From the NCBI GenBank assembly GCA_001789205.1, contig MFYT01000039.1:76233-140232 (forward strand): a stretch of 64,000 nt of DNA, read 5' to 3'. This stretch comes from Candidatus Raymondbacteria bacterium RIFOXYA2_FULL_49_16. Its GTDB lineage: Bacteria > Fibrobacterota > OXYB2-FULL-49-7 > XYB2-FULL-49-35. Below are positions 52,045 through 64,000 of the stretch, piece by piece. Positions within the stretch are counted from its first letter, which is position 1, and every line of letters begins with the position of its first letter. The position numbers were made by a program, and so were the translations under genes. Under the pieces are notes generated by a model. That model was given only the letters and a program-made list of their open reading frames with translations. It was not told the origin of the DNA and did no database searches.

Positions 52045-53700
52045 TTATTTCATCAATATCAGACGTTTTTCCATGGTCTGAGCGCCTATTTGCGCTCTGG
52101 CAATGTACATGCCCGAGGGAAGATGAGATGCGTCCCAGGTAATACACGTTGGCAACTGGCAGTTGGCCCGCGAAGCGAGGCGAGCAGCTGACAGCTTCTG
52201 GAGACGCTTCCCATGTATGTTCAAAATATTTATTTCTATCATCTCTTCACCTGCAATCACCCGCCCGTGTATCGTTATTCTTGTGCTTGGATTAAGGGGA
52301 TTGGGGCATGCTTCCATAATGGGACAATCCCATTCCGGCGAGGCGGGCGCTGGTGCGGCGCGGGTATGAGACTGCTTGACAATAAGTACTCGGCGATACC
52401 GCGTCAGGGCAGGACTGCCGTTGTCTGTCACGATGAGCACCACGTGGATTGTGTCAGTATCGTCAATATCTGACGGTACGAGTACATTCGCCGTCTGCGC
52501 GGTTGAATCCGCTATATGGACCAGGCCATTGTATGTCCCGGCTTCCCGGTAGTACTCCCAAACGTACGATAGCGCATTGCCGTCAGGATCGCTGGAGCCT
52601 GCGGCGCTGAGCGGCACCGTGCTTCCCGGAGAAGCCTCAATGGTCAGATGGGTAAGGTCATCACTGCCGTTCACCACGGGAACGGGTTCATGATTGGCTT
52701 GGGAAAATCCTTTTACGCACCAGTCCATGCGCGCCTTGAAATCGTTCTGCAAATGGACTGCCCAGCGTTTGAGCGTGTTGTCGCGGTTGGTGCTCCCCTG
52801 CCAGGCGTCCTGCTGGTCCGGCCACGTATATTGAGGACCCCTCGCATAGGGTCCATTGTCAGTGGCACTGTACCGTCCTGCCCATCCTCCCCATTGCGGG
52901 CGCATGGGCTCGCACAGTCCGTTGGGAATGACCAGCAGAAATTCATGCGTGTCTCCCTCCTTCTGGATCGTATATAACGCACCAAGAGGACCATGGTTCG
53001 TCAGGACATCCGCGGTAATATTGAACCCGCCCGCGTTATAGGTAAGCGGCTCGAACCGGTGATACCATCTGGAGCCGAACGCTTCGCACGGATAGGTCCC
53101 GCATTTTGTGTATGTTAGAATTCGCCAGAGCGGTATTATTGAAGTATCATGGGCCCCGAATTTGGGATCGCCGTTTATCCTGATTTTGTTCTTGAACGCT
53201 TCATATCCGGCCTGACCGCGTTCCGCAAGGACCTTGTCGAGTGCGCGCCACAAGCTGGATTTTGTTCCGTCGTCCGCACCCCAGTTGGAGAACCACACGG
53301 GACGCGGGTCAGCCTTATCCACGGCCGCTATGATCAGATTAACGCCGTCGTCAACAGTATTGTATCCGGCAACGGTACGGTCCCAGAGAAACTGTTTAGC
53401 GGGAAAATCCGCCTTATGCTGTTTCAGTGAATCGTACACCTCTCCGTAGGCGTTCACATAGCTTTGCACAATCGCCAGACCGGTTGGTAGCGGATTGGGA
53501 TTGTCCGACCGGGTAACAGGCCGCGTGGCAATAATGCCCTCAATGTCCCATTCATTGGCATACAAGAACCAGCGTACCAGAGAAGCTTCATCATCAGGGT
53601 CGCCACCAGCATCGGTTTCAATAATACAACGAATTTTTTCAGCATAACCGGTTGCCGCGAAAACAGTTATGCAAAAAATAATACATATTTTCTTCAGCAT
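52045..53700 (-). CDS. Secreted DUF1593 (Sde182-type) nucleoside-hydrolase-like protein
   Basis: A 551-residue exported protein with a signal peptide. The N-terminal domain starts IIETDAGGDPDDEASLVRW, the acidic motif of nucleoside hydrolase folds, and continues in the style of DUF1593/Sde182 cellulose-binding proteins (WGGWAGRYSATDNGPYARG). An Ig-like domain with SDPDGNALSYVWEYYREAG and a sorting tail (CPNPLNPSTR) follow. Carbohydrate-related function is likely but unproven. Strong AAGGAGG precedes ATG 53700. The AraC/CBM9 gene lies 93 bp upstream on the same strand. Confidence 0.85.
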   Translation of the reverse strand: MLKKICIIFCITVFAATGYAEKIRCIIETDAGGDPDDEASLVRWFLYANEWDIEGIIATRPVTRSDNPNPLPTGLAIVQSYVNAYGEVYDSLKQHKADFPAKQFLWDRTVAGYNTVDDGVNLIIAAVDKADPRPVWFSNWGADDGTKSSLWRALDKVLAERGQAGYEAFKNKIRINGDPKFGAHDTSIIPLWRILTYTKCGTYPCEAFGSRWYHRFEPLTYNAGGFNITADVLTNHGPLGALYTIQKEGDTHEFLLVIPNGLCEPMRPQWGGWAGRYSATDNGPYARGPQYTWPDQQDAWQGSTNRDNTLKRWAVHLQNDFKARMDWCVKGFSQANHEPVPVVNGSDDLTHLTIEASPGSTVPLSAAGSSDPDGNALSYVWEYYREAGTYNGLVHIADSTAQTANVLVPSDIDDTDTIHVVLIVTDNGSPALTRYRRVLIVKQSHTRAAPAPASPEWDCPIMEACPNPLNPSTRITIHGRVIAGEEMIEINILNIHGKRLQKLSAARLASRANCQLPTCITWDASHLPSGMYIARAQIGAQTMEKRLILMK

Positions 53701-53793: not shown

Positions 53794-55305
53794 CTAAGAT
53801 AGGCTTTTTTCCTTCTTCCGATAGTCAGAGGGGGTTGTTCCAACGGCCTTTTTAAATACCGTGGAGAAGTGTTCCAGGGAATTATACCCAGCTTCCATGG
53901 ATATTTCCGTTATGGACTTTTCTGTACCGGAAAGAAGGCATTGGGCCAGCGTAATCCGTTCCGTGTTGAGGTATTGGGGAAAGGTCATGCCGGTTTTCTG
54001 GTTGAAGAGTATGGAGAACTTTCCCTTGTTAACCGCAATAATCCTGGCTGCATCCTCAATGCGCAAATCAGCGTTTCCGAGGTTTTCTTTAATGTGCAGC
54101 AATACCGCATCCAGGGGGTCTCCGATCGGGTGCATCTTGGGTGCGCTACGGACCTTCCGCAGTATTACTATAAACGCAAAAAGGACGATACCCGCGCAGA
54201 TGAGGAGTACAAGCATGCATGGTCGGTTGTGGTTTCTGACGAAAACCAAGTTTCCCCATTCAGAGGGAAAATCGTTGGCCGCAATTGAAACGCCGCTCCA
54301 GGTGGTCCGTATGCATTTGCCGTCTTCGCGTTCCCAGTTTCCATTGAAAAAATCAAACCCAATAGTATCATTGTTTCGGGGAATTGGCATGCGCAATTCG
54401 GTCCAGGGAATGAACAACTCAACGGTATATCCGGAATCCCGGTCTGAATAGTTGTTCACGGTCCCGAGTATTTGAACCGCTTTCCGGACACCTGTTCCCC
54501 AGATATACACCTGCCCGTTTTGGTAATCGAAAACATTCCCCTGGGTCGAATCCACAGATATGATTATCTCGCAGTCACCGGTGTCGCGATATACGTTCCG
54601 GTCGTGGACCCGGTCAAAACACAGTTCAATGTTATCGTCGTACCACAGCGGAATAATCCGTGTCGCCGACCCTTCGAATTCTTCTGAAAGCGGCAGCCGC
54701 GGTGAGATTGCCGTGAGGTGGCGGTCGTGGACCATGCTTGCGAAGTAAAGCCCGGTTTCGTTCCAGAAAGACCAGAGCGATATCAGGTTGTCGGTTGAGA
54801 GCGTCAGTACCGGCGCCAGTTGCCGCCACTCATCGAGTACGCCGTCTATGCGAATATTTTTTTTCAGATACGGGACGTTTAGGGCAATGGTTTTATATTC
54901 CTGGTTCCGGTCAAAAAAGAGGGGGCGTGATGATTCGGGAAAAACCGTGTCTGTCCCAGACCCCTGCAAAAAAATGACCGCCATAAGCCACTTTTGTTTA
55001 AGGTATTGGTCGGGTATGCCGTGGCAGTCCCAGGCAAATTCGTAGGGTGGAACAGCAACCGGGCCGATCCGTAAAAAAGGGCTGCTCTGCGCGTTGAATG
55101 TATTGAAATTTTTTGTTTCGGCCATGCGATAATAAAAGACCACGGAATCGGCCTTCAGGGTATCGATATCCACCTCAAGCCTGACCCGGTCGCCTGTAAC
55201 CACGGAAAACGGTGCGGGTTTAATGAATCGGGGTGCGGCGCAGAGTGTAAGCGCAAAAAGAGGAATACCGAGGACCCGCAGATATGGCATACGGGTAAAA
55301 TACAT
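53794..55305 (-). CDS. Membrane-anchored AraC regulator with CBM9-like ectodomain
   Basis: A 503-residue protein: signal helix (LRVLGIPLFALTLCAAP), FN3-like region to about 140, a CBM9-like domain at about 145-355 (KNIRIDGVLDEWRQLAP, VELFIPWTEL, GFDFFNGNWERED, FPSEWGNLVF), membrane helix (LVLLICAGIVLFAFIVIL) and a C-terminal AraC HTH (SITEISMEAGYNSLEHFSTVFKKAVGTTPSDY). I infer a transmembrane sensor of glycans or their fragments. A 16-base palindrome lies 2 bases before the start and a divergent radical SAM operon follows, so it may control either side. Confidence 0.85.
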   Translation of the reverse strand: MYFTRMPYLRVLGIPLFALTLCAAPRFIKPAPFSVVTGDRVRLEVDIDTLKADSVVFYYRMAETKNFNTFNAQSSPFLRIGPVAVPPYEFAWDCHGIPDQYLKQKWLMAVIFLQGSGTDTVFPESSRPLFFDRNQEYKTIALNVPYLKKNIRIDGVLDEWRQLAPVLTLSTDNLISLWSFWNETGLYFASMVHDRHLTAISPRLPLSEEFEGSATRIIPLWYDDNIELCFDRVHDRNVYRDTGDCEIIISVDSTQGNVFDYQNGQVYIWGTGVRKAVQILGTVNNYSDRDSGYTVELFIPWTELRMPIPRNNDTIGFDFFNGNWEREDGKCIRTTWSGVSIAANDFPSEWGNLVFVRNHNRPCMLVLLICAGIVLFAFIVILRKVRSAPKMHPIGDPLDAVLLHIKENLGNADLRIEDAARIIAVNKGKFSILFNQKTGMTFPQYLNTERITLAQCLLSGTEKSITEISMEAGYNSLEHFSTVFKKAVGTTPSDYRKKEKSLS

Positions 55306-55447: not shown

Positions 55448-56647
55448 ATGCGGAATATGGAAAGCGTGGGCCTGTCTCGCCATCGTGTCCGCTACGAATC
55501 TTTCGGAGGAATACTTTCTTCAACCGACCCGCCTTTTCTTGCATGGGTTGATCGCACATTTCTCAGAGACGCCGGCTACGAAGAAAGTCCTTTATGGCAT
55601 ACAGATGACCCAGGGTATCTTTCGGCCCCCACTGAAGCGCATTTCTCAATAACAGAAAAGTGCAGCAGCGGATGTGCGGGGTGCTACATGGATTCTTGCG
55701 GAGAGACTGCCGTTGATCTTTCCCTTGAAGAGGTAAAGGCCGTTCTTGATACCTTGCGTGCCATGGGCGTCTTTCATGTGGCGTTAGGGGGTGGGGAGGC
55801 TTTTGAACGGCCGGACTTTGAGGACATTGCCGCCTACTGCCGCGAAATCGGCCTGGTCCCAAATCTTACCACCAATGGACAGCGAATGGGTGACCGCGAA
55901 ATCGGCATATGCAGAATGATGGGTCAGGTAAATGTGTCCCTGGACGGGCTGGAAAGCCACTATGGAGTAAACGGAAGAGCCGGGAGCTTTGAGCGGGCAG
56001 ACCAGGCGTTGCGGAAACTCCGCGCCGCTGGCATTGCGGCAGGTATAAATTGTGTTGTATCTGTGAAAAATTATTCCCATATCAAAGATATAGCGGAATA
56101 CGCCTGCACCCGCGGACTGGCGGAAATTGAATTCCTTAAATACAAGCCCTCGGGCAGAGGAAAAGACCGGTACCCGGATTTCGCGCTCAGCCAGGAGATG
56201 ATCCGTTCTTTTTATCCGCGTATCCAGGAAATCGCCGCATCCCTGCCTGTGGAAATTAAAATTGACTGTTCCTTTATTCCGGCAATGATGTACCATCACC
56301 CTCCTCTTGAAGAACTGGAGAAATGGGCGGTGGCTGGCTGTGACGGAGGAAACATGCTTTTGGGAATACGAAGCAGCGGTGTTTTTTCCGCCTGTTCTTT
56401 TATTTCAAACAATGACGCCGAAAGCGCTTTATCCCTTAAAACACACTGGCACACCTCAGCGCACCTTTCACGATTCAGACGATGGACACAAAACCCTCCC
56501 GAACCCTGCGCGTCGTGCACCTATCTAACCATCTGCAGGGGTGGATGCCGGGCAGTGGCATTATATTATAACCATGATTTCTCCTCGCCCGACCCTGAAT
56601 GTCCGTTCGTATACGATTATATGTGCTGTAAAGGAGCCCTTAAATGA
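55448..56647 (+). CDS. Radical SAM/SPASM peptide maturase (RiPP-like)
   Basis: A 399-residue protein. Residues 72-79 hold the radical SAM cluster motif CSSGCAGC (Cx3Cx2C), and the core has LGGGEAFERPDF and VNVSLDGLESHYG. The C-terminal SPASM region carries many cysteines (AVAGCDGGN, FSACSF, EPCASCTYLTICRGGC, PECPFVYDYMCC) that should bind auxiliary clusters, as in peptide-modifying enzymes of RiPP pathways. The N-terminal RYESFGGILSS segment is also common in such proteins. GAGGA lies 9 bases before ATG 55448. The last codons overlap peptide A by 4 bp, so enzyme and substrate are coupled. It is the first of eight genes. Confidence 0.85.
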   Translation: MRNMESVGLSRHRVRYESFGGILSSTDPPFLAWVDRTFLRDAGYEESPLWHTDDPGYLSAPTEAHFSITEKCSSGCAGCYMDSCGETAVDLSLEEVKAVLDTLRAMGVFHVALGGGEAFERPDFEDIAAYCREIGLVPNLTTNGQRMGDREIGICRMMGQVNVSLDGLESHYGVNGRAGSFERADQALRKLRAAGIAAGINCVVSVKNYSHIKDIAEYACTRGLAEIEFLKYKPSGRGKDRYPDFALSQEMIRSFYPRIQEIAASLPVEIKIDCSFIPAMMYHHPPLEELEKWAVAGCDGGNMLLGIRSSGVFSACSFISNNDAESALSLKTHWHTSAHLSRFRRWTQNPPEPCASCTYLTICRGGCRAVALYYNHDFSSPDPECPFVYDYMCCKGALK

Positions 56648-56817
56648 ATAAACCAGTCATTCTGCCTGAAGGCGTCTTAAAAATTAAAAGAGGATATAAT
56701 CCCAACTCAAGCAGTATCGGCAGCGTTGTATACAGTTTTCCCTATGCCTTTATAGCTTTAAGCGCGGTTCTCGCCGTGATCGCGCTTTTAAAAAAGAAGA
56801 AAGATAAAACCCCATGA
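56644..56817 (+). CDS. Candidate RiPP precursor A (57 aa)
   Basis: Sequence features in order: short N-terminus, conserved LKIKRGYNPNSSSIG (about residues 12-26), a membrane helix (YAFIALSAVLAVIALL, about 34-49) and a basic tail (KKKKDKTP). It has no cysteine, so thioether-type modification is excluded. AAAGGAG lies 7 bases before the ATG, inside the maturase gene. ATGA overlaps connect it to the maturase upstream and the membrane protein downstream. A second copy of the motif is at 60045-60218. Function as a modified peptide is inferred from position and conservation. Confidence 0.8.
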   Translation: MNKPVILPEGVLKIKRGYNPNSSSIGSVVYSFPYAFIALSAVLAVIALLKKKKDKTP

Positions 56818-58241
56818 GTCTTCCAAACGCCGCGGCAATTGCCGCGTGCCTTTTCTGCGGGGTATACGCTCAGCCTTTTTCAGCCCTCAGCCAGGGGACC
56901 GCGAAAGACGTGTTTTCTTTTCAAAAGGAACTGCGCACTGCTCTGGAAAACCCATACAAATATTTTCATACCGGCGCTTTTATTGCTCTCATAGATCCGG
57001 TCATCAGCGATAGTACCGCCATTGTGAGCGATATTCCAGCCGATTCCATAAAGACGCTGCTGGAACAGGCCCGCGCCCGGCACTCCTATCCCCTTGTATT
57101 TGTCTTTAGTCTTCTGTATGCGTCGGCCAGCGCTGGTACGTCCTCTAAAACCGAATGCGCCTGTTTAAACGAAGCGGCAAGCCTCGCCTTCCGACGGCTC
57201 AGCAGGCCCCATGAAGCGCTTCGCATTTTCAAAGCAGCTTCTTTACGGGGATGCGAAGGGTCGTATGATTCAGCCGAAACGGTTGACCGCTATATCGAAA
57301 GCGATATGAGCATTGACGCCCTGTTAAAGGAAAAGTTCTACCGGAAGGACAGTGTGGAAAAAGAGCGGTATGTATCAGCCCTCATCGCCGATCTCACCGC
57401 CCATCCGCATTCCTCTCTCCGAATGGAAGCGATGAAACGGCTGGGCGATGTCTATTTTGATCTTAAAAATTATCCGAAAATGAAACGATGGTATTTGAAA
57501 GTCCTGCAGACCGACCCGTCCCTGCGCAAGACTACGCCAATCGGATACCGGCTTACTATCGGAGACAGCCATATCAAACGCACTACCATACTGTATTTAT
57601 TTTACGCATCCTACCTGTTTCTGGGATTTTTTCTTTTACGGCGCATACGGAGCGGGGGTGGCATTGATACAGCCTTTCTGTTCAAACGCTTCTCCCTATT
57701 CGCCCTAGCGCTACTACTGTTCGGCATAGTGCTGTTCTTGGCCGACCTGATACTTTTTAAGCGGACAATCGGCGAACTGCTCAAGCAGGAGTCGTTCGCC
57801 TTGCGCTTCACCGATCCGGTAGTCCCGCTGAGCTTTCTTGATGTTGTTCCGCGAATCCTCCTGATAAAAATATTCTGTATTGGCCTGGCACCGCTTCTGT
57901 TCGCCACGCTCTGCAGCGCCACGAACAAATCCCGCTCCCGGCTTACCGGAAGTGCGGCGCTGCTGGTTTTCACCGCTGTACTATGGGGGCATTTTACCGT
58001 CGCCAGTTTCTATAACGAATACCTGTATAATGACGGCATCATCCTCAAGAGCCGCTACCTCTACTCAGGCGAAATTGAATCGCTGCTGATGAACGACCTG
58101 GATAAAGTGATTAAAGCAAACCCGGATTTTTTCTTTAAAAGCAAAAATTCCGATCTTCGGGTTTTTATACGCAAGAACTTTTCAGAAGAGATGCGCAGCA
58201 AAACGCCCATGGGAGACTATTATCGTGAACAGAGACGCTGA
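56814..58241 (+). CDS. Membrane protein with extracytoplasmic helical (TPR-like) domain
   Basis: A 475-residue protein: N-terminal signal or first helix, a helical repeat region of about 220 residues with TPR-like pairs (ACLNEAASLAFRRLSRPHEALRIFKAAS, HSSLRMEAMKRLGDVYFDLKNYPKMKRWYLKVLQ), then four membrane helices (YLFYASYLFLGFFLL, LFALALLLFGIVLFLADLIL, ILLIKIFCIGLAPLLF, LLVFTAVLWGHFTV) and a C-terminal cytoplasmic or periplasmic tail. No enzyme motif is seen. The start overlaps peptide A by ATGA. It probably handles or exports the peptide; this is inference. Confidence 0.65.
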   Translation: MSLPNAAAIAACLFCGVYAQPFSALSQGTAKDVFSFQKELRTALENPYKYFHTGAFIALIDPVISDSTAIVSDIPADSIKTLLEQARARHSYPLVFVFSLLYASASAGTSSKTECACLNEAASLAFRRLSRPHEALRIFKAASLRGCEGSYDSAETVDRYIESDMSIDALLKEKFYRKDSVEKERYVSALIADLTAHPHSSLRMEAMKRLGDVYFDLKNYPKMKRWYLKVLQTDPSLRKTTPIGYRLTIGDSHIKRTTILYLFYASYLFLGFFLLRRIRSGGGIDTAFLFKRFSLFALALLLFGIVLFLADLILFKRTIGELLKQESFALRFTDPVVPLSFLDVVPRILLIKIFCIGLAPLLFATLCSATNKSRSRLTGSAALLVFTAVLWGHFTVASFYNEYLYNDGIILKSRYLYSGEIESLLMNDLDKVIKANPDFFFKSKNSDLRVFIRKNFSEEMRSKTPMGDYYREQRR

Positions 58242-58242
58242 T

Positions 58243-60048
58243 ATGCGATTCCTGCCGCTTTTGGCCTGTTTTCTTCTGCTTGTCTGCGGACCGCAAAGGC
58301 ACGGGGGTACGCTGCCTGAACTCACCGTCATCGACCGCTTTTCCGCCAGCATAGAATGGAGCACGGCAAACGCGATCCGGGGTATGCTGTTGTATGCCGC
58401 GGAAGGCGAGACCGAACGGACCATAACCGAAGAAACCCGGACAACGTTTCATCACATAACCATATCAGGCCTGCTTCCCGATAAAGTGCATACCTACCGG
58501 ATCAACAGTGGTCCTGATCATACATACCGTTTCCGCACTGCTCCGGGAGCCACATCGTCTTTCAGGTTCGCGCTTATTGAGACATATGAGAAAACCCTGC
58601 AACAGGCATATCCCGATTTTGTCATTATTACTAGCGCCGATTCACACGTCTGCCGTGAAATCATAAAAAAATATGCGGACCTCCATACCGGAACCGCCTT
58701 TTATTATGGAACGTTTGCCTTTACCTGGGGAAACAGCACATTTTCTTCAGATACAATAATCGACTCAAAAAGTGAAAATCGTTTTTTGCTGGCTGCCACA
58801 CAGTTGCCCGAATCCGCTGACAGCAATACGGCCTTGATTGTCCTTGATAAAAAAGCCCCATTGGGGATTGATACAACAGACCAGGCAATAACGGTGCATA
58901 CCGCCGGGACAGCGTTGCTGTTTGAAGTGCAGGGTCCTGAAATTATCGCATCATTGATTAACACTGCATCCAACAACCCTGCCGAACTTACTGTGCGCCG
59001 GGGAAGCCTCGATTATAAGAAAAGCTGCGTCTATTGCCGCCGTCTTCTTGAAGACCGGAAATACCATGAAAGCATCAGGTGGTATCGGCGGTTCATGGAG
59101 AACGATACCGCTACTTCGCGTATCGACGATGCGTTATACCAGGTAGCCTATATATACGATCATTATCTCTTTGATTATCCCAATGCGGTTTCTTCCTATC
59201 AGGAACTGGTGGACCGGTTTCCAGAAAGCAGCAAGGTCCGTACCGCCAGGTTCAGGATATCTTATATCAGCACTCATGCTGACCACGGATTTGAACCGCT
59301 TAAAGTGTTTGAGCGCGCCCGGCTTTCCCGTTTTCAGATAAATAGTGAGGAGTCTGCCCGTGAAGTAGAGGAACTTTTATCGAAATATCCGGGGACCTCC
59401 CTTGAAAAGGACATTCTTTTCTGGCTTGGTAATGTCTATGCTCCGGCGCATTCTGAGAAAGCGCTTTCCTGCTTTCTCCGCCTGGCCAAAGACAGCAATG
59501 CGGAGACCGCGTGGCGCGGAGGAATGGCCGCAGCAGACCTGTATTATCGCGACAGCAGATATACAGAAGCGCGACAGCAGTATATATTGCTCAGGTCTTA
59601 CGCCGGCCAGGACCGGGCGGCCCTGGAAATAAAAATCAGCAGGTGCATACGAAATGCCCGTAGAGAAGTTGTCAGAATAGTTTTCCTGATATTCACCCTT
59701 GCCGTCATGCTCGCGTCACTTTGTATAAAGCCCCGTCCCGCGGCTGCCGCTCTATGTACGCGGTTCCTCGCTTTTCTTGCGGTTTACGCTGTGGCAGCAG
59801 CGCTGCCCTTTTTGATCTGGAAAGACTTTCTCATGCAAGCAAAGAACTTTACCCTCGCGGCAATACCCGTACTGGCGTTTTCCTCAACGCTGATCAAAGA
59901 ACGGTTTCCGCTTTTTTTTGCTGGAATAGACAACACGGTTTTACGCCTTTGCGTATCTCTTGCCGCGGCGTGTATGTTTACGCTGGGTATAATATACCTT
60001 TTGTTGTATTATTTTCATTATCTCTTTATTGTTGAAGGCATAGTATGA
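58243..60048 (+). CDS. FN3/pseudo-phosphatase-TPR lipoprotein-like membrane protein
   Basis: About 601 residues starting at ATG 58243 (the GTG at 58225 would overlap the previous gene). The signal has a lipobox-like LLVC. The N-terminal FN3 and following segment parallel the purple-acid-phosphatase layout of the operon's metallophosphatase, but the metal motifs are missing (IET for GDT, TSADSH for TGDVV), so it is a likely dead phosphatase. A TPR region (DDALYQVAYIYDHYLFDYPNAV, YQELVDRFPESSKVRTAR) and four to five membrane helices follow. It overlaps peptide B by ATGA. Confidence 0.6.
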   Translation: MRFLPLLACFLLLVCGPQRHGGTLPELTVIDRFSASIEWSTANAIRGMLLYAAEGETERTITEETRTTFHHITISGLLPDKVHTYRINSGPDHTYRFRTAPGATSSFRFALIETYEKTLQQAYPDFVIITSADSHVCREIIKKYADLHTGTAFYYGTFAFTWGNSTFSSDTIIDSKSENRFLLAATQLPESADSNTALIVLDKKAPLGIDTTDQAITVHTAGTALLFEVQGPEIIASLINTASNNPAELTVRRGSLDYKKSCVYCRRLLEDRKYHESIRWYRRFMENDTATSRIDDALYQVAYIYDHYLFDYPNAVSSYQELVDRFPESSKVRTARFRISYISTHADHGFEPLKVFERARLSRFQINSEESAREVEELLSKYPGTSLEKDILFWLGNVYAPAHSEKALSCFLRLAKDSNAETAWRGGMAAADLYYRDSRYTEARQQYILLRSYAGQDRAALEIKISRCIRNARREVVRIVFLIFTLAVMLASLCIKPRPAAAALCTRFLAFLAVYAVAAALPFLIWKDFLMQAKNFTLAAIPVLAFSSTLIKERFPLFFAGIDNTVLRLCVSLAAACMFTLGIIYLLLYYFHYLFIVEGIV

Positions 60049-60218
60049 ATCATTCCAAAGGCCGCATTCTTAAAATTAAAACCGGGTATAACCCGAATTC
60101 CAGTTCAATAGGAACGCATGTTTCTTATTTTATAAAAGGCATGTCCGCGTTCGCGGTACTCATTAACGGCATCATGGCCGTTCTGTACACGTTCCGCGAG
60201 AAAAGGAAAAAGAAATAG
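60045..60218 (+). CDS. Candidate RiPP precursor B (57 aa)
   Basis: Same length and plan as peptide A: ILKIKTGYNPNSSSIG at about residues 8-23, a membrane helix (FAVLINGIMAVLYTF) and a basic tail (REKRKKK), no cysteine. GAAGG lies 6 bases before the ATG. ATGA overlap with the gene before, 5-bp gap to the thioredoxin gene after. The shared motif is kept exactly while nine of its ten core codons differ from copy A (for example AAT/AAC, CCC/CCG, AGC/AGT). Confidence 0.8.
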   Translation: MNHSKGRILKIKTGYNPNSSSIGTHVSYFIKGMSAFAVLINGIMAVLYTFREKRKKK

Positions 60219-60223
60219 CCGCT

Positions 60224-60730
60224 ATGAGCTTTTTTAAGATCATGAGTGTCTTTGCTATCTGCGCCGGCTGCATAGGCTGCGCCGGCCGCCGGGAACAAAC
60301 AGTGGCCCCTGATTTTCTTCTGAATGATCTGCAGGACCGGAGATTTTATCTGAGCAGCTGCAAAGGAAAGGCCGTGCTTCTGAATTTCTGGTCTACTCAT
60401 TGCGCACCCTGCATGGAAGAAATGCCCCATTTGGAAAAACTCTATGGGGAATTCTCGAAACAGGGAGTGGTGTTTGCGGGAATATGCATTGATCCGGCGG
60501 AAGCAGGATATCTGGAAACGCTGGTACATGGTCTTGGCGTCACGTATCCTGTGCTTGCCGATATTTCAGGCCGGACAGCGGCGCTGTATGCGGTAACAGC
60601 CGTACCCGTAACCATTATCATCTCTCCGGAGGGTATGATACACAGCAGAACAACAGGATATAGGGAAGCGTATATACAGCGTTTCAGAGAACAGCTTGCC
60701 TCTCTGACAGGCGCATCCGGGACACCATGA
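60224..60730 (+). CDS. TlpA/ResA-like periplasmic thioredoxin lipoprotein
   Basis: A 168-residue protein with a short N-terminal hydrophobic segment and lipobox-like CIGC or CAGC, then a thioredoxin fold with active site CAPC in FWSTHCAPCMEEMP and the cis-Pro region VTAVPVTIIISPEG. It is the TlpA/ResA family that reduces or oxidises periplasmic disulfides. It overlaps the metallophosphatase gene by 4 bp. In this operon it may keep the thioredoxin-like domain of its neighbour or the SPASM product in the right redox state; that is inference. Confidence 0.8.
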   Translation: MSFFKIMSVFAICAGCIGCAGRREQTVAPDFLLNDLQDRRFYLSSCKGKAVLLNFWSTHCAPCMEEMPHLEKLYGEFSKQGVVFAGICIDPAEAGYLETLVHGLGVTYPVLADISGRTAALYAVTAVPVTIIISPEGMIHSRTTGYREAYIQRFREQLASLTGASGTP

Positions 60731-62295
60731 AGCGTTTCATTGTAACCAGTGCCCTTGCATGCGTCCTTGTCGCCGGACCCAAAGCCGCATCTGAATTTCT
60801 TATCAGGCCTTTTGTCCAATCCATAACCAAGGAGTCCGCCGCTATCTGCTTCTCTCTGCCGAACGATGCTGTTTCGCGCACGGTAATCGGCACGGCCGAC
60901 AACGCTGAAACAGCCGTTTATACGGCGCATGAATCCTTAGTAAAAGCGCGTTTCACCGGTCTTAACCCGGAAACGAAATATTATTATACTGTTTCAGTCA
61001 ATGGTACAGAACTTCTATCGCCGCCAGGAGAGTACTATTTTTTTACCGGATCCGCGGCATTGGAAACGCCGGTGACCATCGCGGTATATGGTGATACGCG
61101 CAGCGGCGAGGAAAGTTTTGATCTTGACCATCGGTCGGTCGTGGAAAGCATACGTCATTATTCGTCTCCCGATCTTCTCCTGCATACCGGAGATGTGGTC
61201 AATACGCAGGATCCCGAAGGGTGGAACCGGTTTTTTCACATCGAACATGAGCTTTTAAAAAACACGCCGCTATATCCGGTACGGGGCAACAGTGACGGCG
61301 ACCGGACTGATATCCTGCATATGTTCGCGCTTCCCGGAGATACCACCTGGTATTCCTTCTCCGCGGGACCGGTATACTGCATCGCCCTTGATCTGCAGAA
61401 TAATATGACCGACAGCTATTATGCAAAACATATCGGCCCCGCAAGCGATCAGTGGAACTGGCTGACTCGCATGCTGGCCTCTGATGAACGGAAACGCTGC
61501 CCGTTTACACTGGTCTATTTTCACGCCCCGCTTTTCCCTCCGGATGACGAAACCAGCCCGGCAATGAAAGACCATCTTGTTTCACTGTTTGAAAAAAGCA
61601 ATGTGGACCTTGTAATCAACGGCCAGCACTATTTTTCGTATGCCCAGCGGAATGGCGTAACCTATATGATAAGCGGCGGCGGGGGCGCCCTCCTTGACCG
61701 GTATCAGGCCAAACGATCAGCGTCGGTACGGGTGTATGAACCTGTTTTTCACCATCTGCGGATCACGGCAAACTATCCCGCGCTCACCATAGAAGCGGTA
61801 GACAATGCGGGAACCGTCTTCTTCTCGCATTCCATTATCGCCTCTTCGCCTTCCCCGGGAAAAGAACAACCCCAGCCGGGCCTCACCGAAAACAGGATAC
61901 CACTGCATATTTTCGGCAGTAGTGGCTGCGCCGAATGTGATTTACTTAAAAACGTGCTGCTTCCTGAAATTGAAAAGTCGCTCGCGCCCTATACCTTCTC
62001 CATTACTTTCTATGACACTGATATTCCCGAACACTATGAGCGGTTTCTCGTGTACGAGTCCCGTCTGGGCGACCGTAAGCACACCCTTCCTGCACTGTTA
62101 TATGCCGACAGAATCCTGAGCGGCCCTGAACTTGACCTGCTTTCCCTGAAAGAGTTTTTTAAAAGCCGCGTCATGAGACAGGATAAAAACAGCGTCAAAT
62201 CCCTTGGTTCCGAGAGGTATCCGATGTATCTTTATTTTATATTGGTTGCCGCAGGCATAGGGTTGTTCGTGTTTATTAAGAAAAGGAACGGATAA
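60727..62295 (+). CDS. Metallophosphatase-like protein fused to a thioredoxin-like domain and membrane anchor
   Basis: A 522-residue exported protein. FN3-type N-terminus, then metallophosphatase motifs VYGDTRSG, HTGDVVN, RGNSDGD, YFHAPLF and NGQHYFSY. The usual GNH and GHxH motifs are changed to GNS and GQHY, so activity may differ or be weak. From about residue 395 a thioredoxin/glutaredoxin-like domain follows with CAEC (IFGSSGCAECDLLK), then a C-terminal membrane helix (LYFILVAAGIGLFVFI). This fusion is unusual. It overlaps both neighbours (4 bp with the thioredoxin, 1 bp with the lipoprotein). Confidence 0.7.
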   Translation: MKRFIVTSALACVLVAGPKAASEFLIRPFVQSITKESAAICFSLPNDAVSRTVIGTADNAETAVYTAHESLVKARFTGLNPETKYYYTVSVNGTELLSPPGEYYFFTGSAALETPVTIAVYGDTRSGEESFDLDHRSVVESIRHYSSPDLLLHTGDVVNTQDPEGWNRFFHIEHELLKNTPLYPVRGNSDGDRTDILHMFALPGDTTWYSFSAGPVYCIALDLQNNMTDSYYAKHIGPASDQWNWLTRMLASDERKRCPFTLVYFHAPLFPPDDETSPAMKDHLVSLFEKSNVDLVINGQHYFSYAQRNGVTYMISGGGGALLDRYQAKRSASVRVYEPVFHHLRITANYPALTIEAVDNAGTVFFSHSIIASSPSPGKEQPQPGLTENRIPLHIFGSSGCAECDLLKNVLLPEIEKSLAPYTFSITFYDTDIPEHYERFLVYESRLGDRKHTLPALLYADRILSGPELDLLSLKEFFKSRVMRQDKNSVKSLGSERYPMYLYFILVAAGIGLFVFIKKRNG

Positions 62296-63185
62296 TGAAA
62301 TCACGAAACGTTTCATCAATAGCGGAAACACGGACTGTTTTTGTTGATCTGAAATGGATAAAGGGAATATTGTTTGGAATTCTTTTTATGTTTATTGTCC
62401 CGCTGGCGCTATCATGCTCAAAAGAAACTTCCGGTACATTCAATCCCGCAGACCATTATTTAAAAATAGAAGAACTCAGGGCCGCTAAACCGCTGGACTT
62501 GCACAAAATTGAAAGCATATACACCACACAACTTGCACCGCGATATCACACGGCCTATCCCGCTATTCACGCATCCATCCTTGAAGCTATGAGGAAAGGG
62601 GAGGCCGGAGAAAACGTGCGTGTGCAATCGCAGACCATAAGCAAGGAGCTGCAGAAGATTTTCTACCGGGAGCTTGCCGCCTCGCTCAGCGCGCTTGAAG
62701 CGGAAGCAGACCCTGCGATGTATGCGCAGGAACTTGAAAGGGCGAAATCCGCGTATGCGTGTTTAAAACCGCTGTCTAAGCGCAGGAGCGAATGGCTGAA
62801 GAACGGCACAGCGTTTGACGACCTTTTCGCGTCAGCCTTCAGCACTTTGGCCTCAATGCCTGGCAAAGAAACCGTAAAAAAAACATGTGATCGGATCATT
62901 TTATTATTTCGCGACATTTTCATTTACTCTGTTTTTTATGAACTGTTCGGCATAGAGACGTCACGGGGAACAGATAACATCACATGCGAAGAGAAAATGG
63001 CTGAAGCAAGGATCTTTCTGGAATCAGCTCTGCCATTCTGCAGGCAACAGCAGTTCTGCGTGCCGCTGGCAACAGCGTTTCATAAGGACTATAGGGACCT
63101 GGATATTGAAAAAACCAGGGAAGACTTGTTTGCCGCGTTCCCAGGGCTGGATACGCACGCAGTGTTGAAAGCGTCCGGGAAATAA
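62295..63185 (+). CDS. Lipoprotein of unknown function, last gene of the RiPP-like operon
   Basis: A 296-residue protein with a long N-terminal segment, a hydrophobic stretch and a lipobox (LALSC around residues 37-41). The rest is mainly helical with scattered cysteines (YACLKPL, TCDRIILL, CEEKMAE, FCRQQQFC). No family was recognised. TAATG overlap with the metallophosphatase gene shows tight coupling. It could be an outer- or inner-membrane partner of the peptide system. Confidence 0.65.
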   Translation: MKSRNVSSIAETRTVFVDLKWIKGILFGILFMFIVPLALSCSKETSGTFNPADHYLKIEELRAAKPLDLHKIESIYTTQLAPRYHTAYPAIHASILEAMRKGEAGENVRVQSQTISKELQKIFYRELAASLSALEAEADPAMYAQELERAKSAYACLKPLSKRRSEWLKNGTAFDDLFASAFSTLASMPGKETVKKTCDRIILLFRDIFIYSVFYELFGIETSRGTDNITCEEKMAEARIFLESALPFCRQQQFCVPLATAFHKDYRDLDIEKTREDLFAAFPGLDTHAVLKASGK

Positions 63186-63224: not shown

Positions 63225-64000
63225 TTATCTTAGCAGCACCGCGCGCTTGGTATACACAATTCCATTGACGCATATGCGGATTATGTACGTTCCGGATGGC
63301 ATGTTTCGGGCGTTCCAGGTGTATGCGTGCGTACAAGCGGTATTCACAGTACGTTTATTGTACAGGAACGAGGTCCCCGCATTGTGTACGCATACGCCTT
63401 GCACATTATAAATGCGCAAGGTTGGGCTGGTTGCGGCGGGTAATCCATTTGTTGGATCAGGTGATAAACCCGCCCCAATAAATATGGATATCACCATAAC
63501 TGGATTAAACGGGTTTGGTTCCACTGTTACAGCCATATCATTCTGCGTTGAGGCCGATATGCCCGCTCCGGTTGTTCCTCCGCACGAGCTTTTGTCTTCG
63601 GGCGTATTATAATCGGCAGAATAAAACCACACTTCCTGTGGAGCAACAAGCGTATCATTACCTGAATAGAGTTCAAGATCAAAGGACAGGTCAGAGCTTG
63701 TAGAGCTCACCTGATGGACCTCTGCCGCAATGACATTCCCGCCATTCCGGAAATGCGATATAAAAGAGGTGATGTCGTTGACCGCGAATGCCGATCCCTC
63801 GTGATCTCCGGAAGCAAAAGTGCTGTACGTCACTTCACCCGGAAGCATGGATCTGCGGGCGATCTCGTATCCATTCAAATAGACCACAACACCATCATCA
63901 TATTTTACTCCTAGCGAACAGGACGAAAAGGCGGACGCATCATCAATAAAAAAACTTTTCCTGAAATAGGCCGCATCCACATGAGGTATCACGGTGTTTT
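63225..64000 (-). CDS. C-terminal part of a secreted protein with galactose-binding-like and sorting domains
   Basis: The frame is open to the window end, so the N-terminus is missing; the GTG at 63992 is probably an internal Val. The readable 258 codons have a beta module (VKYDDGVVVYLNGYEIARR, NVIAAEVHQVSSTSSDLSFDLEL) followed by a PNPFNPVMV sorting tail. The module and tail match the C-terminal third of the metallophosphatase at 13426-15681 (VYTAYFRKSMSV against VDAAYFRKSFFI), so this is likely a related secreted hydrolase. Its catalytic domain lies outside the window. Confidence 0.75.
   Translation of the reverse strand, partial: NTVIPHVDAAYFRKSFFIDDASAFSSCSLGVKYDDGVVVYLNGYEIARRSMLPGEVTYSTFASGDHEGSAFAVNDITSFISHFRNGGNVIAAEVHQVSSTSSDLSFDLELYSGNDTLVAPQEVWFYSADYNTPEDKSSCGGTTGAGISASTQNDMAVTVEPNPFNPVMVISIFIGAGLSPDPTNGLPAATSPTLRIYNVQGVCVHNAGTSFLYNKRTVNTACTHAYTWNARNMPSGTYIIRICVNGIVYTKRAVLLR

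Follow-up and report, generated by a model that had tools for sequence, protein, structure and literature searches.

Radical SAM/SPASM enzymes that act on a cognate peptide form an already known kind of system. The anaerobic sulfatase-maturating enzymes (anSME) oxidise either Ser or Cys to formylglycine, and carry eight SPASM cysteines and two fully ligated auxiliary clusters (PMC5682303). SuiB is the Lys-Trp cyclase of streptide, FibroRumin (TIGR04136) is by name a radical SAM peptide system of Fibrobacterota, and SynChlorMet includes the SPASM pair ScmE/ScmF. A system of this kind, with a peptide and a gene set found in no family library searched, marks a stretch of 64,000 nucleotides (the window) from Candidatus Raymondbacteria bacterium RIFOXYA2_FULL_49_16 (contig MFYT01000039.1, positions 76,233 to 140,232), a member of the Fibrobacterota with a genome of 5.4 Mb. 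Here eight genes in a row encode a maturase, two short membrane peptides and their putative partners. The enzyme and the peptide families are tightly co-inherited over about ten phyla, and are absent from the family libraries searched. We favour, at a probability of roughly 0.6, a peptide-maturation system in which a dedicated radical SAM/SPASM enzyme modifies a Ser or Cys residue of a membrane peptide, which is kept as a working part.

The maturase and peptide families

The maturase (399 aa; window 55448..56647, + strand, as all features of the operon) contains a Pfam Radical_SAM domain (61.8 bits), and its AlphaFold2 model has a predicted local distance difference test score (pLDDT) of 92.6. 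A previous reading of the DNA letters, hereafter the sequence-only reading, had pointed to a Cx3Cx2C motif and a cysteine-rich SPASM region, and both are present. The radical SAM cluster motif CxxxCxxC (C72, C76, C79; 55661..55684) is invariant in 27 aligned homologues, and is kept in the cysteine-type clade described below. The SPASM domain (56267..56602) has a complete ligand set, made by the canonical seven Cys (C298-x12-G311-x4-C316; C354xxC357x5C363xxxC367; C385) plus C274. In the serine-type family 11 Cys are invariant, three in the radical SAM cluster and eight consistent with two auxiliary clusters, both fully ligated; the eight auxiliary residues (C274 and the seven SPASM ones) are likewise kept in the cysteine-type clade.

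The best solved folds all belong to peptide-modifying enzymes: SuiB (Z 31.5), SkfB (27.3), PqqE (25.9), CteB (25.1) and anSME (24.6, over 313 residues). The SuiB alignment spans 372 residues at 18% identity, and in both enzymes a linker Cys may complete the auxiliary cluster Aux I. It includes an N-terminal element (residues 12-41; 55481..55570), formed in the model by three strands (12-17, 20-26, 29-35) and a helix (36-41), which resembles a recognition element of ribosomally synthesised and post-translationally modified peptide (RiPP) pathways, but is short, and shorter than in SuiB. The fold alignment begins at residue 6, and a hidden Markov model (HMM) match to SuiB residues 28-40 was obtained. 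The peptides differ from those of SuiB in having no Lys-Trp core and in carrying a transmembrane (TM) helix.

Apart from the Radical_SAM domain, HMM checks of maturase and peptides against NCBIfam and Pfam gave no family, in line with the sequence-only reading, in which the rest of the gene set matched no known pathway. The maturase best matches MftC (TIGR03962, 133.4 bits) and the GeoRSP radical SAM protein (132 bits), well below the cut-offs of 265 and 400. Membership in the mycofactocin or GeoRSP systems was rejected on these scores and on the lack of an MftB/PqqD-like gene in the operon; the peptides end in KTP/KKK, unlike the C-terminus of the MftA type. Membership in FibroRumin, a relation raised but left unconfirmed in the sequence-only reading, is excluded, as the TIGR04136 matches of the genome do not include the maturase, and the best place elsewhere scores 18 bits against a cut-off of 400. 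A literature search found no description of motif or gene set, though naming elsewhere is possible, most subscription papers and preprints lying outside the search.

Peptides A (56644..56817) and B (60045..60218) were called as open reading frames (ORFs) of 57 aa, each with a single predicted TM helix (residues 31-49 and 29-47, respectively). Both feature LKIKxGYNPNSSSIG, followed by the TM helix and by a basic tail. The motif is LKIKRGYNPNSSSIG in peptide A (56677..56721, first Ser of the triplet at 56707-56709) and LKIKTGYNPNSSSIG in peptide B (60069..60113, first Ser at 60099-60101). In its 15 codons the two genes differ by 10 synonymous changes and one non-synonymous change, and four codons are identical. 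These figures rule out a recent DNA duplication, and indicate purifying selection on the protein sequence. The genome has just two occurrences of the motif and one maturase of the family. Peptide A has no NCBIfam match and a single sub-threshold Pfam match (E 0.28); peptides A and B and 29 relatives belong to no family in NCBIfam or Pfam, giving scattered matches (E >= 0.003), none of them shared by more than two members, and match nothing in the PDB.

A DNA pattern scan, made on one genome per species, matched at least 107 stretches. About eight chance matches were removed, among them rows L044, L052, L089 and L110 (NPNRRW in long ORFs) and rows L051, L071 and L115; matches in the Myxococcota genomes G511 and G634 (PNPNSST, GPNPNSSS) are also probably due to chance. 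The set of 108 peptides, which includes those of the window and other Fibrobacterota copies, has the consensus [RK]G[RK][IV]L-x-[VIL]-K-x-G-[Y/M/F/L]-N-P-N-S-S-S-[LIVM]-G. SSS was found in all true relatives, although the pattern permitted other residues at the three positions; K, G, N and P are likewise invariant in serine-type peptides, and the Tyr position is variable (Met, Leu, Phe, Ser and Val also occur). Two Planctomycetota peptides feature NPNSSG. The enzyme-peptide system is not confined to Fibrobacterota. Peptides reside in about ten phyla, which include, among the matches listed, Myxococcota, Planctomycetota, Thermodesulfobacteriota, Spirochaetota, Fibrobacterota, Kiritimatiellota, Bacteroidota and Elusimicrobiota; hosts are mostly metagenome-assembled genomes, and individual phylum labels may be wrong. 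Carriage by mobile elements was discarded: a scan of viral contigs gave one unrelated match, and plasmid matches all fall under 60% identity, the top ones (about 24-29%) being to MftC and other radical SAM proteins.

Co-occurrence was examined from both sides, the maturase and the motif searches being run independently. The maturase (E <= 1e-30) was found in 7 of 167 Fibrobacterota genomes, and the peptide in all seven (five match the strict pattern, two carry an SSSIA variant; Fisher p 2e-8). Both searches returned the identical 6 of 294 genomes in Planctomycetota (p 1e-12, or 6e-11 without genomes first found via the motif). Among 235 Myxococcota genomes, a maturase at E < 1e-120 is present in 10, each of which also has the motif; nine were matched by the pattern, and G566 was recognised in translation (p 1e-13, or 2e-8 with the same exclusion). 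The maturase family is sharply bounded: in 25 genomes its orthologues lie at E <= 1e-135, and the radical SAM proteins next in rank at E >= 1e-52. Nearly all genomes examined hold one copy. A dedicated enzyme-peptide pairing is very probable. The association of a radical SAM/SPASM enzyme with conserved short peptides, proposed in the sequence-only reading, is supported; absence of the short genes next to maturase homologues was looked for, and did not occur.

Serine and cysteine types, and the putative reaction

Some maturases from Myxococcota (E 1e-83 to 1e-117) occur without the NPNSSS motif. Sixteen of these 20 enzymes have their own upstream TM peptide, G-x-[A/G/S]-[P/A]-N-C-S-[S/A]-x-G, in which the first motif Ser is replaced by Cys (NCSS/NCSA). 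The 20 cysteine-type enzymes form a single clade (Shimodaira-Hasegawa-like approximate likelihood ratio test, SH-aLRT, 97), nested among serine-type enzymes. In peptides of this branch Asn4 is changed to Ala or Gly, and Lys to Arg, while N6-[S/C]7-S8 is kept. From the NCSS/NCSA peptides and from NPNSSG in the two Planctomycetota, the invariant core is reduced to N-[S/C]-S. Two residues of the enzyme change at the same branch. E228 (56129..56131) is Glu in 83 of 84 enzymes with serine-type peptides (Asp in one), and Gln in 20/20 members of the cysteine-type clade; S275, beside the cluster ligand C274, is Ser in 83/83 and Ala in 20/20, respectively. The joint switch is suggestive: a first Ser/Cys seated in the active site would be expected to leave such a trace, which points to this residue as the probable target; it is not proof, because the switch is a single event.

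In the scheme that we favour, the maturase would recognise small peptides with one TM helix by their N-terminal stretch GRILxVKxGYNPNSSSxG, and would modify this stretch in the cytoplasm. Within the core [P/A]-N-[S/C]-S, the residue most likely hit would be the one that opens the Ser triplet; that modification falls on the N-[S/C]-S core is, overall, probable. As to the chemistry, anSME accepts Ser and Cys interchangeably, and by analogy the first Ser/Cys may here be oxidised: a C-beta hydrogen would be removed, and a two-electron oxidation would yield a formylglycine-type aldehyde, electrons leaving via the two auxiliary clusters as in anSME. This chemistry is the leading candidate, and is put forward tentatively. 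The likeness to anSME includes the eight auxiliary Cys of a SPASM enzyme and a substrate residue that may be either Ser or Cys; differences are the absence of a sulfatase nearby, and a substrate which is a membrane peptide of about 60 residues with an N-[S/C]-S core. The peptide would remain a working part of the inner membrane, rather than be trimmed to a diffusible product, because it has a TM helix and no protease or exporter was recognised in the operon. Its partners would be a TPR protein that ends in four TM helices and, for peptide B, also the TlpA-like, metallophosphoesterase-thioredoxin and lipoprotein members of its module. That the peptide represents an undescribed class of genetically encoded, membrane-anchored cofactor, whose aldehyde at N-[S/C]-S gives periplasmic TPR, redox and phosphatase partners in some ten phyla a fixed group for catalysis or covalent capture, is a rather doubtful extension. 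Were the modified peptide to stay in the membrane, this would be an unusual use of a RiPP-type enzyme, producing a built-in membrane cofactor instead of a secreted natural product.

Several points weigh against a Ser/Cys-modifying system of this type. Four of the 20 cysteine-type maturases have no peptide in the DNA examined, and several Myxococcota peptides are located away from the maturase. The Ser to Cys switch happened once in evolution, and the E228 and S275 changes may follow the Lys to Arg and Asn to Ala/Gly changes of the same branch instead. The proposed base of anSME is the Asp after the second Cys of CX9-15GX4C, and the residue at this position is Ser317 in both clades. The nearest fold, SuiB, makes a C-C crosslink, so that fold does not fix the chemistry. 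The charge-difference rule gives no clear membrane orientation of the peptides.

Alternatively, the maturase could modify the motif by another SPASM reaction (a Lys, Tyr, Asn or Pro crosslink, a backbone change or an epimerisation), Ser/Cys being a recognition residue only. SuiB, the closest fold, is a Lys-Trp crosslinker, the invariance of K, G, N and P in serine-type peptides would suit such a reaction, and several motif positions are altered on the cysteine-type branch. However, the motif Tyr is not conserved, and in the sister clade Asn4 is turned into Ala/Gly and Lys into Arg while N6-[S/C]7-S8 persists. In epimerases such as EpeE a free Cys is the hydrogen donor, and this mechanism is unlikely for the maturase because each of the 11 invariant Cys is accounted for as a cluster ligand. 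On the whole, a reaction of this group is judged somewhat unlikely. A Ser/Cys exchange found in nature, and matched by residue changes in the enzyme, makes modification of Ser/Cys a sharp, testable hypothesis on both site and chemistry.

It is quite improbable that the maturase acts on a small molecule and has the peptide as its anchor or partner. NirJ, AhbD and MftC, enzymes of heme d1, heme b and mycofactocin, are among the best sub-threshold HMM matches, but the best solved folds are those of enzymes modifying peptides. Genomes have a single maturase and one to three peptide copies, some of them distant from it and equipped with partners of their own, as expected of substrates, and enzyme residues switch together with the peptide motif.

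Least probable is a conventional RiPP cluster, with peptides that are cleaved to give a diffusible product, a two-peptide antimicrobial or signal, which two peptides, a SPASM enzyme and a compact operon would fit, since the motif is nearly invariant over some ten phyla and runs straight into the TM helix with no leader/core boundary, partners are TPR, redox and phosphatase proteins, and no protease, ABC exporter or immunity gene was recognised among the eight proteins by Pfam and NCBIfam. The RiPP pathway of the sequence-only reading stands as to the SPASM enzyme with conserved peptides, and fails as to a leader/core division, a Cys- or aromatic-rich core and a maturation protease or exporter recognisable in the operon by Pfam and NCBIfam.

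Operon structure, modules and neighbours

All eight ORFs previously described as a run of genes were located on the + strand, and the seven junctions measure -4, -4, -17, -4, +5, -4 and -1 bp. The -17 overlap is a consequence of the GTG start picked for the FN3-TPR gene, an ATG being found 18 nt downstream. Peptide A is adjoined by the TPR protein TPR1 (56814..58241), which has an N-terminal signal-like segment, TPR repeats (weak match) and about four C-terminal TM helices; the TM part has no solved relative among the matches listed, and relatives of the protein reside beside the peptide in other phyla. The FN3-TPR protein (58225..60048) features a purple-acid-phosphatase-N (PAP-N)/FN3-like domain, TPR repeats (TPR_6 match) and a C-terminal TM region, and has relatives in Desulfobacteria, Elusimicrobiota, Myxococcota and Planctomycetota. 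Peptide B is followed by a TlpA/ResA-like lipoprotein thioredoxin with a CAPC motif (60224..60730; AhpC-TSA 84 bits; ResA family 102 bits against a cut-off of 170), and by a calcineurin-like metallophosphoesterase (60727..62295; Metallophos 46.9 bits) with a PAP-N domain, a CxxC thioredoxin-like region and a C-terminal TM segment, relatives of which also lie beside peptides in other phyla. The last gene encodes a lipoprotein (62295..63185), a conserved partner of the peptide B module, whose relatives adjoin peptide B in Fibrobacterota, Planctomycetota, Desulfobacteria and Elusimicrobiota.

Two modules can be distinguished. The core is made by the TPR protein, the peptide and the maturase, the second by FN3-TPR, lipoprotein, peptide B, TlpA-like and metallophosphoesterase(-thioredoxin) genes, and adjoins the core in Planctomycetota, Desulfobacteria, Bacteroidota and others. 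The operon of the window is a fusion of these two modules (maturase-peptide A-TPR; FN3-TPR-peptide B-TlpA-metallophosphatase-lipoprotein), which are separate elsewhere. In the Fibrobacterota genome G154 they lie about 10 kb apart, a third peptide is found elsewhere, and a single maturase is present for the three peptides.

Other genes reside near the modules in some hosts. A SynChlorMet cassette abuts the peptide B module in one Desulfobacterota chromosome (L090, 2342-5106); it includes ScmD, with ScmE scoring over the cut-off and ScmF just under, its SPASM pair is distinct from the maturase, and the adjacency is a single case. In some Myxococcota the peptide lies apart from the maturase, and in three cases (L039, L083 and L117; L083 assigned by gene clustering) its neighbours are genes of TRAP-type transport with a TPR component, TAtT and DctP, in place of the usual TPR-TM gene. 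A conserved membrane protein of about 150 aa (YPxYRxxVKPxL...FETKEHLA) was found near most cysteine-type maturases (L185-L204). Genes resembling phosphoenolpyruvate-synthase regulators (MKxVxxISDATGETAE) are located downstream of the maturase in several Myxococcota (L040, L063, L206, L208-L210), and a DUF2950-like protein (L053, 4208-4837; L121, 1329-1946) usually follows it in loci of the Planctomycetota/Bacteroidota/Spirochaetota type.

The operon is flanked on both sides by genes on the - strand. The divergent neighbour (53794-55305), 142 bp from the maturase, combines in one protein a CBM9-like domain, a probable TM segment and a C-terminal AraC-type helix-turn-helix, and could be a membrane-bound regulator. 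An Sde182 protein (52045-53700; cellulose-binding, nucleoside-hydrolase-like) and a fragment at 63225-63998 both match weakly the Por secretion tail.

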